NCBI GenBank assembly: GCA_030747075.1 | Contig: JASLLL010000015.1 | Location: 1 to 57,769, forward strand | Length of the DNA stretch: 57,769 nucleotides | From: Gemmatimonadota bacterium | GTDB taxonomy: Bacteria > ARS69 | Reading direction: 5' to 3' | Part shown: piece by piece, positions 9,266 to 15,005 of the stretch | How the letters are laid out: each line of letters starts with the position of its first letter | Numbering within the stretch: the first letter of the stretch is position 1 | Notes under the pieces: generated by a model | Database searches by the model: none | Seen by the model: only the letters and a program-made list of their open reading frames with translations | What the model was told of the DNA's origin: nothing | Position numbers and translations under genes: made by a program

Positions 9266-10332
9266 ACCTTCGTCGCGCGGGCATCGCGCTTCTGGTCCCC
9301 GCCGTCACGGCGGCGCTCTTTCTGCCAGCGGCGGAACTGATCGTCCGGCTGGCCGCTCCCCGCTCCCTTCCATCGCAGGAGTTCATTCGCGGCTTCGTGC
9401 TGAAGGACATGTATCTCGCCGATGAAGACTGCGGCTTCGTGCTCGCCCCCGGCTTTTCAGGACGCATCGAGCGCGACGGCGTCGTCACGGAGTTTTCGAC
9501 CAACTCACTCGGGCTTCGCGGACCGGAACCGGGACCGAAAACCGGCGCGCGCATTCTCGCACTCGGTGACTCCTTCACATGGGGATGGGGAGTTCCCGAT
9601 GACGAAGCATGGGTCCGGGCGGCCGCACGCGCGCTGGGGGAGAATGCGGCAGAGGGCATCAACGGCGGCGTGAACGGGTATGGCACGGAAGCGGAGCTGG
9701 AACTTCTCCGCAAGGTCGGACCGGCCGTTCAACCGGACCTCGTGCTGGTCGGGTTCTACACCAACGACTACATGGACAACTTCTTCGGTGCGCAAGGCTT
9801 CTATACCGTCCGCGACGGGTACCTCTTCAACCACTTCACGCACGAGTATTACCGCGAGAGCTGGCTCGCCCGGGAGAGCCACTTGTGGCGACTCCTCTCC
9901 GAGGCGCGCGAGAAGATCCGCACGAAGTGGTTCCACGGCATGCCCTCCTCCAGCCCGCATCGGGGCGTCTCTCAGGATGAGCTTCGCATGGGAATGGAAC
10001 GCACCGTGGAACTCATGGCCACCATGCGCGACGTCTCGGATTCCCTGGGTGCCGCGTTCGGGGTCGTCTGGATGGCGGCCGATGTCTATGCCTTCCCGAA
10101 GAACCCCCCGGACATCCCGCTTCGGAGCGAGTTGCGGGAACGGGTGGCTTCGCTCGGAATCCCGTCCCTCGACCTCCTCCCGGTGTTCCGGTCGGAACGG
10201 GACATCCCCGGCCTCTTCATCCCGGGCGACGGACACATGACCGTCCGGGGGAACCGCGTGGCCGGGCGGGCAGTGGCCGCGTGGCTTCGCGATGAAGAAC
10301 TCCTGTCGAGATCCAATCACCCGAACCCGTAG
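9262..10332 (+). CDS. SGNH/GDSL-type hydrolase, membrane-anchored
   Basis: This 356-residue protein starts at a GTG overlapping the methyltransferase stop. Residues 5-32 are an N-terminal membrane anchor or uncleaved signal. The nucleophile block L-G-D-S-F-T has Ser at about residue 104. A G-x-N-G-Y-G-T segment supplies the oxyanion glycine, and G-F-Y-T-N-D-Y contains the conserved Asn. The catalytic acid/base pair appears as P-G-D-G-H near residues 321-325. Such enzymes act as esterases, including sugar O-acetyl esterases, or as acyltransferase partners. It closes the radical SAM-methyltransferase-hydrolase trio, and only 13 nt separate it from the next gene. Confidence 0.85.
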   Translation: MNLRRAGIALLVPAVTAALFLPAAELIVRLAAPRSLPSQEFIRGFVLKDMYLADEDCGFVLAPGFSGRIERDGVVTEFSTNSLGLRGPEPGPKTGARILALGDSFTWGWGVPDDEAWVRAAARALGENAAEGINGGVNGYGTEAELELLRKVGPAVQPDLVLVGFYTNDYMDNFFGAQGFYTVRDGYLFNHFTHEYYRESWLARESHLWRLLSEAREKIRTKWFHGMPSSSPHRGVSQDELRMGMERTVELMATMRDVSDSLGAAFGVVWMAADVYAFPKNPPDIPLRSELRERVASLGIPSLDLLPVFRSERDIPGLFIPGDGHMTVRGNRVAGRAVAAWLRDEELLSRSNHPNP

Positions 10333-10345
10333 ACGAGAGACCGCC

Positions 10346-13138
10346 ATGACCCCACGATCTCTTCGCGCAACCGGCGCTGCCCTCCTCCTTCTGACGATGC
10401 TTCCCGGGCAGGCCTCCGCAGCCTCCCCGCCGACCGCCGATCCCGGCGCAACGCCGCGCTCCGGCCTGGAAGAAACGGAGGACCTCACCGAGAGCCTCGC
10501 GAACCATCTGCACGAAGTCTCCTTCGCCATTCTGGATCGCGACATGGAGAAGTTCGCGGAGCACTTCGCCCCGGACGCAACCGGCACCGATGTCCCGATC
10601 GGAGAGGGAGAACCCACGGCGGAGACTCGCTGGGTCCACACACGGCCCTTGCGGGAACCCGTGTCGCTGTCAGGGCGCGGCGCCCTCGCCACGGCCTGGG
10701 GCGAGTATCTGGACACCTTCCGCTCGCTGGAGGATGTGCGTCTGAAGGTGAAGTCCGCAGAGATGAATACTGACGGAAATGGAACCGTCTCCGCGTCCGC
10801 GTACATCAAGTACTTCTGGATCGGACGCGGGCCGGAAGGAGCACGCGAGTGGGTGAAAGGAGTGGGCCGCGTGAAGGCATCCCGCCCTCGGGACGGCCCG
10901 TGGACCCTCCATGAACTGACGCTCACCGACCTTCACCCTCGCGTTGCCACGGCCAACCTCTTCGATGAGGTGAGCGGTCCGGCGGGGACCGCGCTCACGG
11001 TCCCCCGCTGGGGGTCTCCCGGAAACGAGGAGTTCATGGCGCACGGAGTCGCGGTGGCCGACCTGGACGACGACGGGCTTCTGGAGATTTTCGTGACAGG
11101 TGGCGGAGAGAACCACCTGTACCGAAGCCGGGGTGACGGCACCTACGAAGACATCGCCATGAATGCTCTCGTCGGGGTGACCCCTTCCGCGACCGGCCCG
11201 CTCTTTCTGGACTTTGACAACGACGGCGACGAAGACCTCTTCCTCGCGTCGGTCGGACGCCAGATGTTCTTTGAGAACCGGTTCGTGCCGGAAGGGCGCG
11301 TGGAGTTCCTCGAACGATCGGAAGACGCCGGAGTGGCGCTTCCGGCGCACGGCTACAGCGCCGTCTCCGCCGATGTCAACTCCGACGGCTTCCCCGACAT
11401 CTATGTGTGCTCGTACAACGCCTACGGAACCGTCATGCCGAACTCATGGAGCCAGGCCACGAACGGCACGCCCAATCTCCTGCTCATCAACGACGGCGGA
11501 AGACGATTCGTCGAGGCGGCCGCCGACTGGGGAGTCGCGGATTCCCGCTGGACCTACGCGGCTCAGTTCGCGGATCTGAACGGAGACCACCGAGCGGACC
11601 TCTATGTGGCCAACGACTTCGGAGTGAACGCCTTCTACATCAACGAAGGGGACCGCTTCCGCGACGCCTCACGCGAGTTCGGCATCGACGACACGGGAAA
11701 CGGCATGGGGGTCTCCTTTGGTGACTACGACAACGACGGCCGCGTCGACCTCCATGTCACCAACATGTCGTCCACGGCGGGCAACCGGATTCTGGGCGTT
11801 CTGTTTCCCGACATGGAAGACTCTCCCGAGTACGCCCGCACGCTGAAGAAGTTGGCGTCCGGGAACACGCTGTACCGCAACACGGGAGACGGCTCCTTCC
11901 GCGATGTCACATCCGAAGTCGGTCCGTTTTCCGCGGGCTGGGCCTTCGGGGGCGGATTCCTCGACTTTGACAACGACGGCTGGCAGGACATTCACACGCC
12001 GAACGGTTTCATCTCCGGCAAGGGGCTTCGTGACACTTGAAGCCTCTTCTGGCGCCATGTACTGGCTGCCTCGGAGAAGCGGGACGACGCGGGAAGCGAA
12101 GACTACAAGGACGACCACTTCGGCAAGATTCTGAAGGAGGGGTTCTCGTTCAGCGGGTTCGAACGGGACCACCTCTACCTGAATGTGGACGGCAAGAGGT
12201 ATGCCGACATCTCCGGGCTTTCGGGAATCGACTCCGACACCGACGGACGGGGCGCCGCCTATGCGGACCTCGACAACGACGGCGATGTCGACATCTTCCG
12301 CACGGCGTTCCAGAGGAAGGCACACCACCTCTTCCGGAACAATGTCGGGCAACGCGCAAACTTCCTCCGCGTATCCCTGATCGGAACGAAGAGCGGCACC
12401 GACGCCTTCGGAACCGTGGTTCGCGTGGGCACTTCTCGCGGAGTACAGACGCGCTTCAAGTCGGGAGGGGCGGGCTTCGTCTCCCAGCACGACCCGCGCC
12501 TTCTCTTCGGGTTGGGGAGTGACACTTCGGTGGAGTGGATCGAGGTCGCCTGGCCATCCGGGTCGGTGGAGAAGTTCCGGGGAGTCGGCGCGGGGCTGTC
12601 CGTCCTGATCACCGAGGGCCAGGGCCGGTTGACGACGCTGGAGGATCGGGCCTTCGCGCTGCCGGACCCCCCGGCCGACCGGGAGGTCCTTCTGGCGAAA
12701 CTGGCCGTCCGGCCCGGCGACCGCTTCCCGGACCTTGCGCTCGGCACGCTGGCCGGAGACGCCACGACCTTTCGCGCGGAATCCGGCTCCGGCCGCGCCA
12801 CTGTCGTCAACCTCTGGGCCACCTACTGCGTTCCGTGTCGAAAGGAGATGCCCGAACTGGAGAGGCTTTCCGCGGAACTGTCCCGCGCGGGCGTGGATGT
12901 GATCGGCCTCAGCATCGATGTCGGCAAGGGGCGCAAGAAGGTCCCCGGCTTCGTGCGGAAGCAACGCCTGACTTACCCCGTCTACACCACGACCGACGGC
13001 GTCTTCGCCCGCATCTATTCCGGCGACGAGGTCTTCATTCCTCTGACCTACCTGGTTGGCGCGGACGGAATCGTGACGGAGGTCTTCACAGGATGGTCGA
13101 AGGAGGCCGAAGGGGCCATTCGGAAGCTGGCACAGTGA
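10346..13138 (+). CDS. Probable selenoprotein: NTF2-like / FG-GAP / ASPIC-UnbV / TlpA-thioredoxin fusion with in-frame TGA
   Basis: Read through the TGA at 12038-12040, this is one 930-codon frame with residue 565 as the presumed selenocysteine. Residues 1-28 are a signal peptide, about 35-200 an NTF2/SnoaL-like domain, and about 225-640 a series of FG-GAP/VCBS calcium-binding repeats (D-x-D-x-D-G patterns). An ASPIC/UnbV domain spans about 670-745 and a TlpA-like thioredoxin domain follows to the end, with C-V-P-C at 828-831. Both sides of the TGA are in the same frame. The sequence around it, G-L-R-D-T-(U)-S-L-F-W-R-H-V, continues smoothly into D-H-L-Y-L-N and another FG-GAP repeat, so a frameshift is not involved. 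A SECIS-like hairpin follows. Treated as a plain stop, the gene would give a 564-residue product plus an orphan frame from GTG 12185 with no ribosome site. Export to the periplasm is expected. Confidence 0.75.
12038..12080 (+). promoter_or_regulatory. Candidate bacterial SECIS element downstream of an in-frame UGA
   Basis: After the UGA (12038-12040), bases 12046-12050 (CUUCU) can pair with 12075-12079 (AGAAG). Then 12051-12054 (GGCG) pairs with 12067-12070 (UGCC, including one G-U pair), and 12055-12057 (CCA) pairs with 12063-12065 (UGG), leaving 12066 bulged. The apical loop is UGUAC at 12058-12062, with G as its second base. The loop begins 17 nt after the UGA. Known bacterial SECIS elements have a small loop with G among the first two bases, roughly 16-37 nt from the UGA. 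The structure was folded by eye and no energy was computed. Confidence 0.6.
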
Positions 13139-13214: not shown

Positions 13215-15005
13215 ATGCCCGGAAGAGACCGATGTCTTCTCATTCTCGGCGGCGCGGGCCTTGTCGGAGTGCAGTGCGCAAAGAAGGCCGCGCGCGCCCT
13301 GCATCCCGGTCGGATCGTCCTGGTGTCACTCTTCCGAAAGGAGACGCGGGAAGCCATCGCTTCTCTTTCGAAGGAGTTTCCCGGGATTGAGTTCGCCGGG
13401 TATTACGGGAACCTCTTCGTTCGCGGAGAACCCACGCCCATCGAGACGCGCGTTCCGGAGCCGTCGCCGCGGGACTTCGTGGAGAACGCGGAGAACCGGC
13501 GCCACATCTTCGAAGACACCTTCACGGACTTTGAGTCCGCCTATCGGGAGTCGATGCTGGTCCGCCTTCTGCTCATGGAGAAGCCCGATGCGGTGGTGGA
13601 CACGGTCAACACCGCCACGGGAATCAGCTATCAGGACATCTTCTCCAGTTCGTTCGTCGTGTCGAAGGGGCTGGAGGAGGCCCGGGAGGGCGGCCTTGGC
13701 GAGGGCTTCGCAACGGATGTGGAGAAGCACCTGATCGCCGGGGGCATCCCGCAGCTCATCGTCCATGTTCGTCTCCTGCACCGTGCGCTCTCGGAGGCGG
13801 GTTCCCGGATCTATCTGAAGGTCGGGACAACCGGCACCGGCGGCATGGGTCTCAACATTCCCTACACGCACGGCGAGGACAAGCCCAGCCCCACACTCAT
13901 GGCCAAGACGGCCACGGCCTTCGCACAGACGGGACTGCTGTTCCTGATGGCCAGAACGCCGGATTCTCCCATCATCAAGGAGATCAAGCCCGCCGCCATG
14001 ATCGGCTACCGGGACATCGGCTACCACATCATCAGAGGGCCGCAATACCGGCCTGCCGGGAAAAGCGGCGGCATCACGGTCACGCACGGAGAGGCCTACG
14101 CGCTCTACGAAGCGCGGGGAGAACCGCTGGCGGACATCCTCGACAACGAACCCTGCTTTGACGGATATGAACGCCTCCAGGACAAGGACGGCCGCCCCGC
14201 AAAGCTCCTGCTTCCCTGCGTGAACACAGGGGAGAACGGGATCTTCACGCGTGGAGAGTTCGAGGCCATCACGGCCCTCGGCCAGATGGAGTTCGTCACG
14301 CCGGAGGAGATTGCCGACCTCGTGACGCTGGAGCTCGCGGGGAACAACACGGGAAGAGATGTCATCTCCGCCGTGGACTCCTCCGTGCTCAATCCGTCGT
14401 ACAAGGGAGGCCTCATTCGCGGAGTGGCCATCGAGGAGCTGGAGGAACTGGAGAATGAGAAGGGCGTTCCCTCGGTTGCCATCGGGCAGCTCGGGCCGCC
14501 GCAACTCGCGAAGTACCTGTACGAGGTCCACTTCCTGAAGCAGCTCCACGGGACCGTCGAGCGAGTTCTCGCTGACGAGGACGGCCACGCCCGCACGCCG
14601 GAAGACCTCTCGCGGGAGATGGAAGCGCTCGTCACGGAGAGCCCGCTCCGACACACCATCACATCCATCGGTATCCCCATCCTGCTGCCGGACGGAACCG
14701 GCATCCTTCGCGGACCGGTCATCAAGATTCCGCCGTACAACAAGAAGGCGCATCGGATTCCGCTGACGGAAGATGCCGTGGACGCATTCGCGAAGAAGGG
14801 CTGGGTGGATCTCCGCCCCGCACACATGTCATGGTGGCTGGACTGCTTCGCAAGCATGAGGCAAACGGTCTATCGGCGTGGTTCCAAGTGGAGTTCGGAA
14901 CGCTTGGACCATGCGTCCTATCTGCATTCGGAGATCCGGATCGGAGAGGTGGTGGCCTGGATCTTCAATAACCGGATTTCCCCCAGAGGCCATCGCATCA
15001 AGTAA
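13215..15005 (+). CDS. Large SDR-like NAD(P)-binding protein of unknown substrate
   Basis: The product has 596 residues, starting at ATG 13215 after an AGGGGAGGG ribosome site. The first 20 residues hold a Rossmann nucleotide-binding turn, G-G-A-G-L-V-G at 12-18. Further segments (V-V-D-T-V-N-T-A-T-G near 120, Y-L-K-V-G-T-T-G-T-G-G-M-G-L-N near 200, then D-K-P-S-P-T-L-M-A-K) fit an extended short-chain dehydrogenase. The ~300-residue C-terminal half has no motif I recognise. At nearly twice the usual SDR length, it may act on a large thioester or lipid substrate. It sits just before two acyl-CoA-synthetase-type genes, suggesting a shared acyl-chain pathway. The reaction itself cannot be assigned. 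Confidence 0.65.
   Translation: MPGRDRCLLILGGAGLVGVQCAKKAARALHPGRIVLVSLFRKETREAIASLSKEFPGIEFAGYYGNLFVRGEPTPIETRVPEPSPRDFVENAENRRHIFEDTFTDFESAYRESMLVRLLLMEKPDAVVDTVNTATGISYQDIFSSSFVVSKGLEEAREGGLGEGFATDVEKHLIAGGIPQLIVHVRLLHRALSEAGSRIYLKVGTTGTGGMGLNIPYTHGEDKPSPTLMAKTATAFAQTGLLFLMARTPDSPIIKEIKPAAMIGYRDIGYHIIRGPQYRPAGKSGGITVTHGEAYALYEARGEPLADILDNEPCFDGYERLQDKDGRPAKLLLPCVNTGENGIFTRGEFEAITALGQMEFVTPEEIADLVTLELAGNNTGRDVISAVDSSVLNPSYKGGLIRGVAIEELEELENEKGVPSVAIGQLGPPQLAKYLYEVHFLKQLHGTVERVLADEDGHARTPEDLSREMEALVTESPLRHTITSIGIPILLPDGTGILRGPVIKIPPYNKKAHRIPLTEDAVDAFAKKGWVDLRPAHMSWWLDCFASMRQTVYRRGSKWSSERLDHASYLHSEIRIGEVVAWIFNNRISPRGHRIK

Follow-up and report, generated by a model that had tools for sequence, protein, structure and literature searches.

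A probable selenocysteine codon in the beta-propeller of bacterial CRTAC1-type proteins with a fused TlpA/ResA-like thioredoxin domain

The stretch of DNA analysed here, referred to as the window (57,769 nucleotides), contains on its forward strand a frame of 930 residues that opens with an ATG at 10346, ends with a TGA stop at 13136-13138 and is interrupted by a single internal stop, a TGA at 12038-12040. This raises the question of whether the internal TGA terminates a protein or is read as an amino acid, and in the latter case what that residue might do. A first-pass annotation, made from the letters of the window, had proposed a probable new selenoprotein with CRTAC1 and TlpA domains, encoded by one frame that is broken only by this codon and shows domain homology on both sides of it. 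The translation agrees with the single frame, so that the coding sequence would span 10346-13138 (930 amino acids if the TGA specifies selenocysteine, Sec); a further in-frame ATG is located upstream at 10292. Pfam likewise places FG-GAP repeats before the TGA and ASPIC/UnbV and Redoxin/AhpC-TSA domains after it in the same frame. The FG-GAP beta-propeller, which is CRTAC1-like, covers 11060-12403 (PF13517, 8e-38; PF01839), the ASPIC/UnbV domain 12404-12592 (PF07593, 4e-15) and the TlpA/ResA-like thioredoxin domain 12713-13102 (PF08534, 1.7e-15; PF00578). The protein thus combines the propeller and the ASPIC/UnbV domain by which the CRTAC1 family is defined. An AlphaFold model of it has a mean pLDDT of 85 and a pTM of 0.85, and its best solved structural relatives in Foldseek are murine CRTAC1 (9etn_A, E 2.7e-27) and ResA/TlpA thioredoxins, which match the C-terminal domain. 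The N-terminus (10346-10420, MTPRSLRATGAALLLLTMLPGQASA) resembles a signal peptide in translation, and the product is therefore probably exported. Directly 3' of the gene lies an ORF of 596 amino acids (13215-15005, forward strand) with no Pfam match.

The first-pass annotation had suggested aligning homologues at the TGA codon, and this comparison speaks clearly for its proposal. An independent search of a public genome collection gave seven nearest homologues with 43-53% identity, representing six distinct lineages since two of them (L012 and L017) are near-copies, and all seven carry TGA at exactly this codon. Their source labels are Latescibacterota, Acidobacteria, Chloracidobacterium and Gemmatimonadetes. 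The TGA is the only internal stop in all six of these homologues with an intact frame; the seventh, L016, contains a run of N. We then built a profile of the Sec region and ran it across whole genomes, with small samples for the phylum of L015 (n=2) and for the window's own phylum (n=5). In the latter, four of the five genomes (G000, G014, G016 and G017) match, with one TGA each. In the phylum of L014 (396 genomes), the 29 best matches (E <1e-34), which include two of the seven nearest homologues, all have exactly one TGA, and the weaker matches represent a more distant subfamily in which about half have one TGA. The profile also matches 89 of the 392 genomes in the phylum of L020, up to seven times per genome, and most of these matches have one TGA. 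Some genomes of the G011 phylum (e.g. G582, G803, G476 and G527) have an expanded set of paralogues, with five to seven matches each, mostly with one TGA.

Reading the codon in the fetched loci and removing copies left 79 distinct homologous genes with TGA in the same column, spread over Acidobacteriota, Planctomycetota and several candidate phyla. After the TGA, the frame of these genes runs on without a stop for 146 codons or more (median 368). That the family extends beyond the window gene is, on this evidence, practically beyond doubt. Cysteine, which the first-pass annotation had named beside TGA as a codon that would support Sec at this column, turned out to be rare: the residues of non-TGA genes are E (19), S (4), D (4), A (3), N (3), G (3), C (3), P (2), Q, M and V. 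TGA thus recurs widely and Cys in only three genes (two at L171, one at L175; genomes G293 and G269), in which Cys replaces Sec (DYCTVFWRHDIYTD) and the hairpin described below is gone. One gene of another CRTAC1 subfamily, whose remaining members have Glu, contains a TGA in the same column as well (L157 in genome G254, codon at 2657, DLULPYILGAV); its hairpin looks plausible, and it is a single case. Paralogues from the same genome were considered and set aside because they cannot be aligned through the Sec loop; two of them have flagged TGAs, but at other sites.

Downstream of the TGA, the RNA can form a hairpin (12051-12070) with an upper stem of 12054-12057 paired to 12063-12066 and an apical loop UGUAC (12058-12062) that starts 17 nt after the TGA and has G in its second position, as the first-pass annotation had described. 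Published constraints for bacterial SECIS elements (bSECIS) are a loop of 3-9 nt, an upper stem of at least 4 bp, a UGA spacing of 16-37 nt, an MFE of -7.5 kcal/mol or lower, and a G at loop position one or two with G or U after it (PMC13188914). The window hairpin, folding at -15 to -17 kcal/mol, lies within these limits, so that the folding and bSECIS search proposed as a check came out in favour of the element. The z-score relative to shuffled sequences was -2.6 for the 43-nt hairpin and -0.3 for a wider frame, and because of the latter value folding energy alone is weak evidence. An Rfam scan of the region returned nothing relevant.

What makes the selenoprotein case compelling is that both the codon and the hairpin are found again in the 79 distinct genes. 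Counted from the T of the TGA as 0, the stem is formed by positions +16 to +19 and +25 to +28, which enclose a loop of five bases, and in nearly all members across phyla the loop reads NGUNN and the spacing to the TGA is 17 nt. The conserved stem is short, nearly always 4 bp and often 5-6 bp. The outer stem CUUCU/AGAAG of the first-pass annotation, or the slipped variant UCUUC/GGAGA that folds instead, falls outside this consensus, and only the upper stem and the loop are conserved. In a set of 28 sequences, 94.6% of the pairs are formed, the covariation score was reached by none of 500 shuffles, and sliding the pairing partner destroyed the covariation; for 22 non-Sec homologues, these columns are 62% paired, which is the level of shuffled sequences. 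In the pair +17/+27 (18-28 in this set), the silent third position of an Arg codon faces the first position of a codon for A, T, P or S. This pair occurs as CG (15), GC (4), GU (4), UA (3) and AU (2) and hence varies but stays paired, so that a silent base and an amino acid change together. Further changes on both sides of the stem are found in L198 and L199 (+15/+29, C-G to U-A) and in L211 (+18/+26, C-G to G-C). The 4-bp upper stem is complete in 73 of 76 TGA genes (49/51 plus 24/25), compared to 4 of 22 non-Sec genes and none of the three Cys genes (Fisher p 4e-13 for TGA versus non-TGA genes, relatedness ignored).

The genome of the window also encodes the machinery that such a codon would need. 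A search for selA, selB, selC and selD found all four, with 535 bits for selA, 357 bits for selB and 73 bits for a tRNA-Sec with the anticodon UCA. The selD gene (G000:C4:62873-63799, outside the window) itself has one in-frame TGA, which indicates independently that this organism reads UGA as Sec; the selenophosphate synthetase is thus probably a selenoprotein, too, judging from its gene. Among genomes with TGA genes, selB was found in 52 of 55 and selA or selB in 53 of 55, and the two genomes that lack both carry a TGA-containing selD and are probably incomplete. Genomes with only non-TGA forms had selA or selB in 13 of 23 cases (p 4e-5 versus TGA genomes, relatedness ignored); this association is significant only in the wider sample, in which related genomes are not independent. 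The presence of selA alone does not discriminate because selA is common in these phyla, and it was present in five of five comparison genomes as well. In G293, we found selA and a TGA-containing selD and did not find selB, and a selA match in G011 (C34:3687-5054) contains one in-frame TAG. The gene neighbourhoods gave no conserved neighbour as a clue to a substrate, except that the distance between the gene and selA is only about 5 kb or less in two genomes (G018 and G048). In these two genomes (L184:5324-10337 and L185:5706-13764), the selenoprotein gene is located close upstream of selA, and next to selA comes a gene for RNase G on the opposite strand.

Could the TGA have arisen or be read in another way? 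As the draft genome consists of 61 contigs, a sequencing or assembly error might be suspected; the identical codon occurs, however, in dozens of independent assemblies, several of which have the gene on megabase-long contigs, so that this source was rejected and its probability is negligible. A true stop, with the locus as two proteins, a split gene or a pseudogene, would account for the ORFs of 560-580 and 350-380 amino acids that standard gene calling yields in each genome. Against it, the interrupting codon is always TGA, never TAA or TAG, and always in one column, protein conservation runs through both sides, and the covarying hairpin is present only alongside the TGA. We thus regard termination as very improbable. 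Readthrough of TGA by ribosomes is possible in other contexts, and insertion of another amino acid by a changed code, a suppressor tRNA or programmed readthrough would also keep the frame open. But at least four long ORFs that neighbour the gene in the window end with TGA, which upholds the earlier judgement that a code change is unlikely; W is absent from the column in all homologous genes whose codon was read; and a dedicated tRNA-Sec(UCA), selA, selB and a Sec-type selD are present. This makes such decoding highly improbable, if slightly less so than a true stop. The proposal of a probable new selenoprotein is in line with the conserved TGA, the covarying hairpin and the sel machinery, all of which are genomic evidence, and we consider it nearly certain that Sec is inserted at UGA 12038-12040. 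SelB and tRNA-Sec would read this codon under the direction of the bSECIS hairpin, which starts 10 nt downstream.

What the Sec does is a separate matter. It would be residue 565 of 930, within R-D-T-U-S-L-F-W-R-H-V, and the model puts it in an insertion of the propeller at the N-terminal end of a helix (residues 565-576, DT-U-SLFWRHV), with low confidence around the Sec loop (block means 56-74). Thiols and selenols at the start of a helix are often activated, and D, S, N and G, which are among the replacements of Sec, are common helix caps. In this family, Sec usually gives way to helix-capping or acidic residues and not to Cys, an unusual pattern for a redox site. The first-pass annotation had assumed that the residue forms a site separate from the CxxC of the thioredoxin domain (CVPC, 12827-12838). 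This is probably not the case, as the Sec appears evolutionarily tied to that motif: the CxxC is intact in all 70 Sec proteins that keep the thioredoxin domain, and among 19 non-Sec proteins with the thioredoxin fold both Cys are kept in two and one or both are lost in the other 17. The motif is invariant in full-length members, and in six close ones its two Cys are, Sec aside, the only invariant ones. From the counts of 70/70 and 17/19 we infer an internal redox relay between Sec and CxxC, for which these sequence patterns leave about even odds. The phylogeny contributes few independent data points. Non-Sec forms are nested inside Sec clades (L163, L166 and L213), so that loss of Sec is the likely direction, and a clade of 20 non-Sec members adjoins Sec forms. 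Among these nested cases, the CxxC is gone from L213 and the whole domain from L166, but L163 retains the motif; there are three phylogenetically independent Sec/CxxC pairs, about two of which agree with the relay.

Alternatively, the Sec may act alone, as a metal- or ligand-binding or peroxide-reactive residue of the propeller, and the thioredoxin domain may have a substrate of its own. Several Sec members without a thioredoxin domain (L157, L158 and L198-L200) favour this possibility, replacement by D, E, S or N is more easily reconciled with a ligand or helix-capping role than with a thiol, and the propeller blades of the window protein contain metal-binding-like DxDxDG motifs. The joint disappearance of Sec and CxxC from most non-Sec homologues argues against it, and we consider a Sec acting on its own possible, if rather doubtful. 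L158 has the motif U-T-C, and L198 and L199 have a Cys five residues after Sec; whether these replace the CxxC is speculative. In the relay that we favour, the exported product would join a CRTAC1-type FG-GAP propeller to a TlpA/ResA-like thioredoxin domain at its C-terminus, the Sec most likely being the reactive selenolate of a periplasmic oxidoreductase that the fused CxxC would reduce or oxidise intramolecularly. We infer the periplasmic redox relay with moderate confidence. For the explanation as a whole, namely a gene with a Sec-UGA encoding an exported CRTAC1-thioredoxin fusion in which Sec most likely relays with the CxxC, we estimate a probability of roughly 0.93.

The genes appear to form a large family that occurs in many bacteria of soil and water and seems to have escaped the catalogues, and standard annotation would split each of them into two. 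The broadest claim, that one of the largest bacterial selenoprotein families has so far been missed and that it is the first beta-propeller selenoenzyme, with a Sec outside any thioredoxin fold that pairs with the CxxC of a fused thioredoxin and with several paralogues per genome in some Planctomycetota, may equally well hold or fail. Under this claim, the family was overlooked because annotation splits the gene and almost no Cys homologues guide the searches; searches guided in this way miss families in which Sec gives way to other residues, a point that matters for how large bacterial selenoproteomes are and for why Sec decoding is kept in some lineages. The family would add a widespread member to the known selenoproteins, with a fold not linked to selenium before in the catalogue (PMC13188914). 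It also offers a testable function for bacterial CRTAC1-type proteins, the candidate Sec-CxxC relay.

The 2026 review of prokaryotic selenoproteins catalogues 119 families, among which there is no entry for FG-GAP, UnbV or CRTAC1 and no matching Sec motif (PMC13188914). Neither this catalogue nor the PMC texts searched contain a Sec-containing CRTAC1 or FG-GAP protein, and the literature searched has no paper that combines selenocysteine with UnbV and no relevant one on CRTAC1 with selenoproteins. None of the NCBIfam selenoprotein models matches the window protein above its cut-off. Among the closest known systems are the UGC-containing TlpA disulfide reductase family and the WAxxUGC ResA-like proteins of NF041054, which are likewise bSECIS-decoded selenoproteins of the TlpA/ResA thioredoxin type. 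In these proteins, however, the Sec is part of the thioredoxin active site, whereas the window protein has a CxxC there and its Sec about 260 residues upstream in the propeller; it scores 29.4 bits against the NF041054 model (cut-off 300) and thus falls outside that family. With CRTAC1 (cartilage acidic protein 1; murine structure 9etn) and the bacterial 'CRTAC1 family protein', it shares the architecture of propeller plus UnbV. Its hairpin agrees with the bacterial SECIS of Zhang and Gladyshev in loop size, position of the G and range of spacing (constraints as given in PMC13188914), but, unlike that general range, the element of this family is unusually constant, with a spacing of 17 nt and an NGUNN loop. 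The decoding is thus ordinary bacterial Sec insertion, and what is new is the fold, the position of the Sec and the pattern of its replacement.
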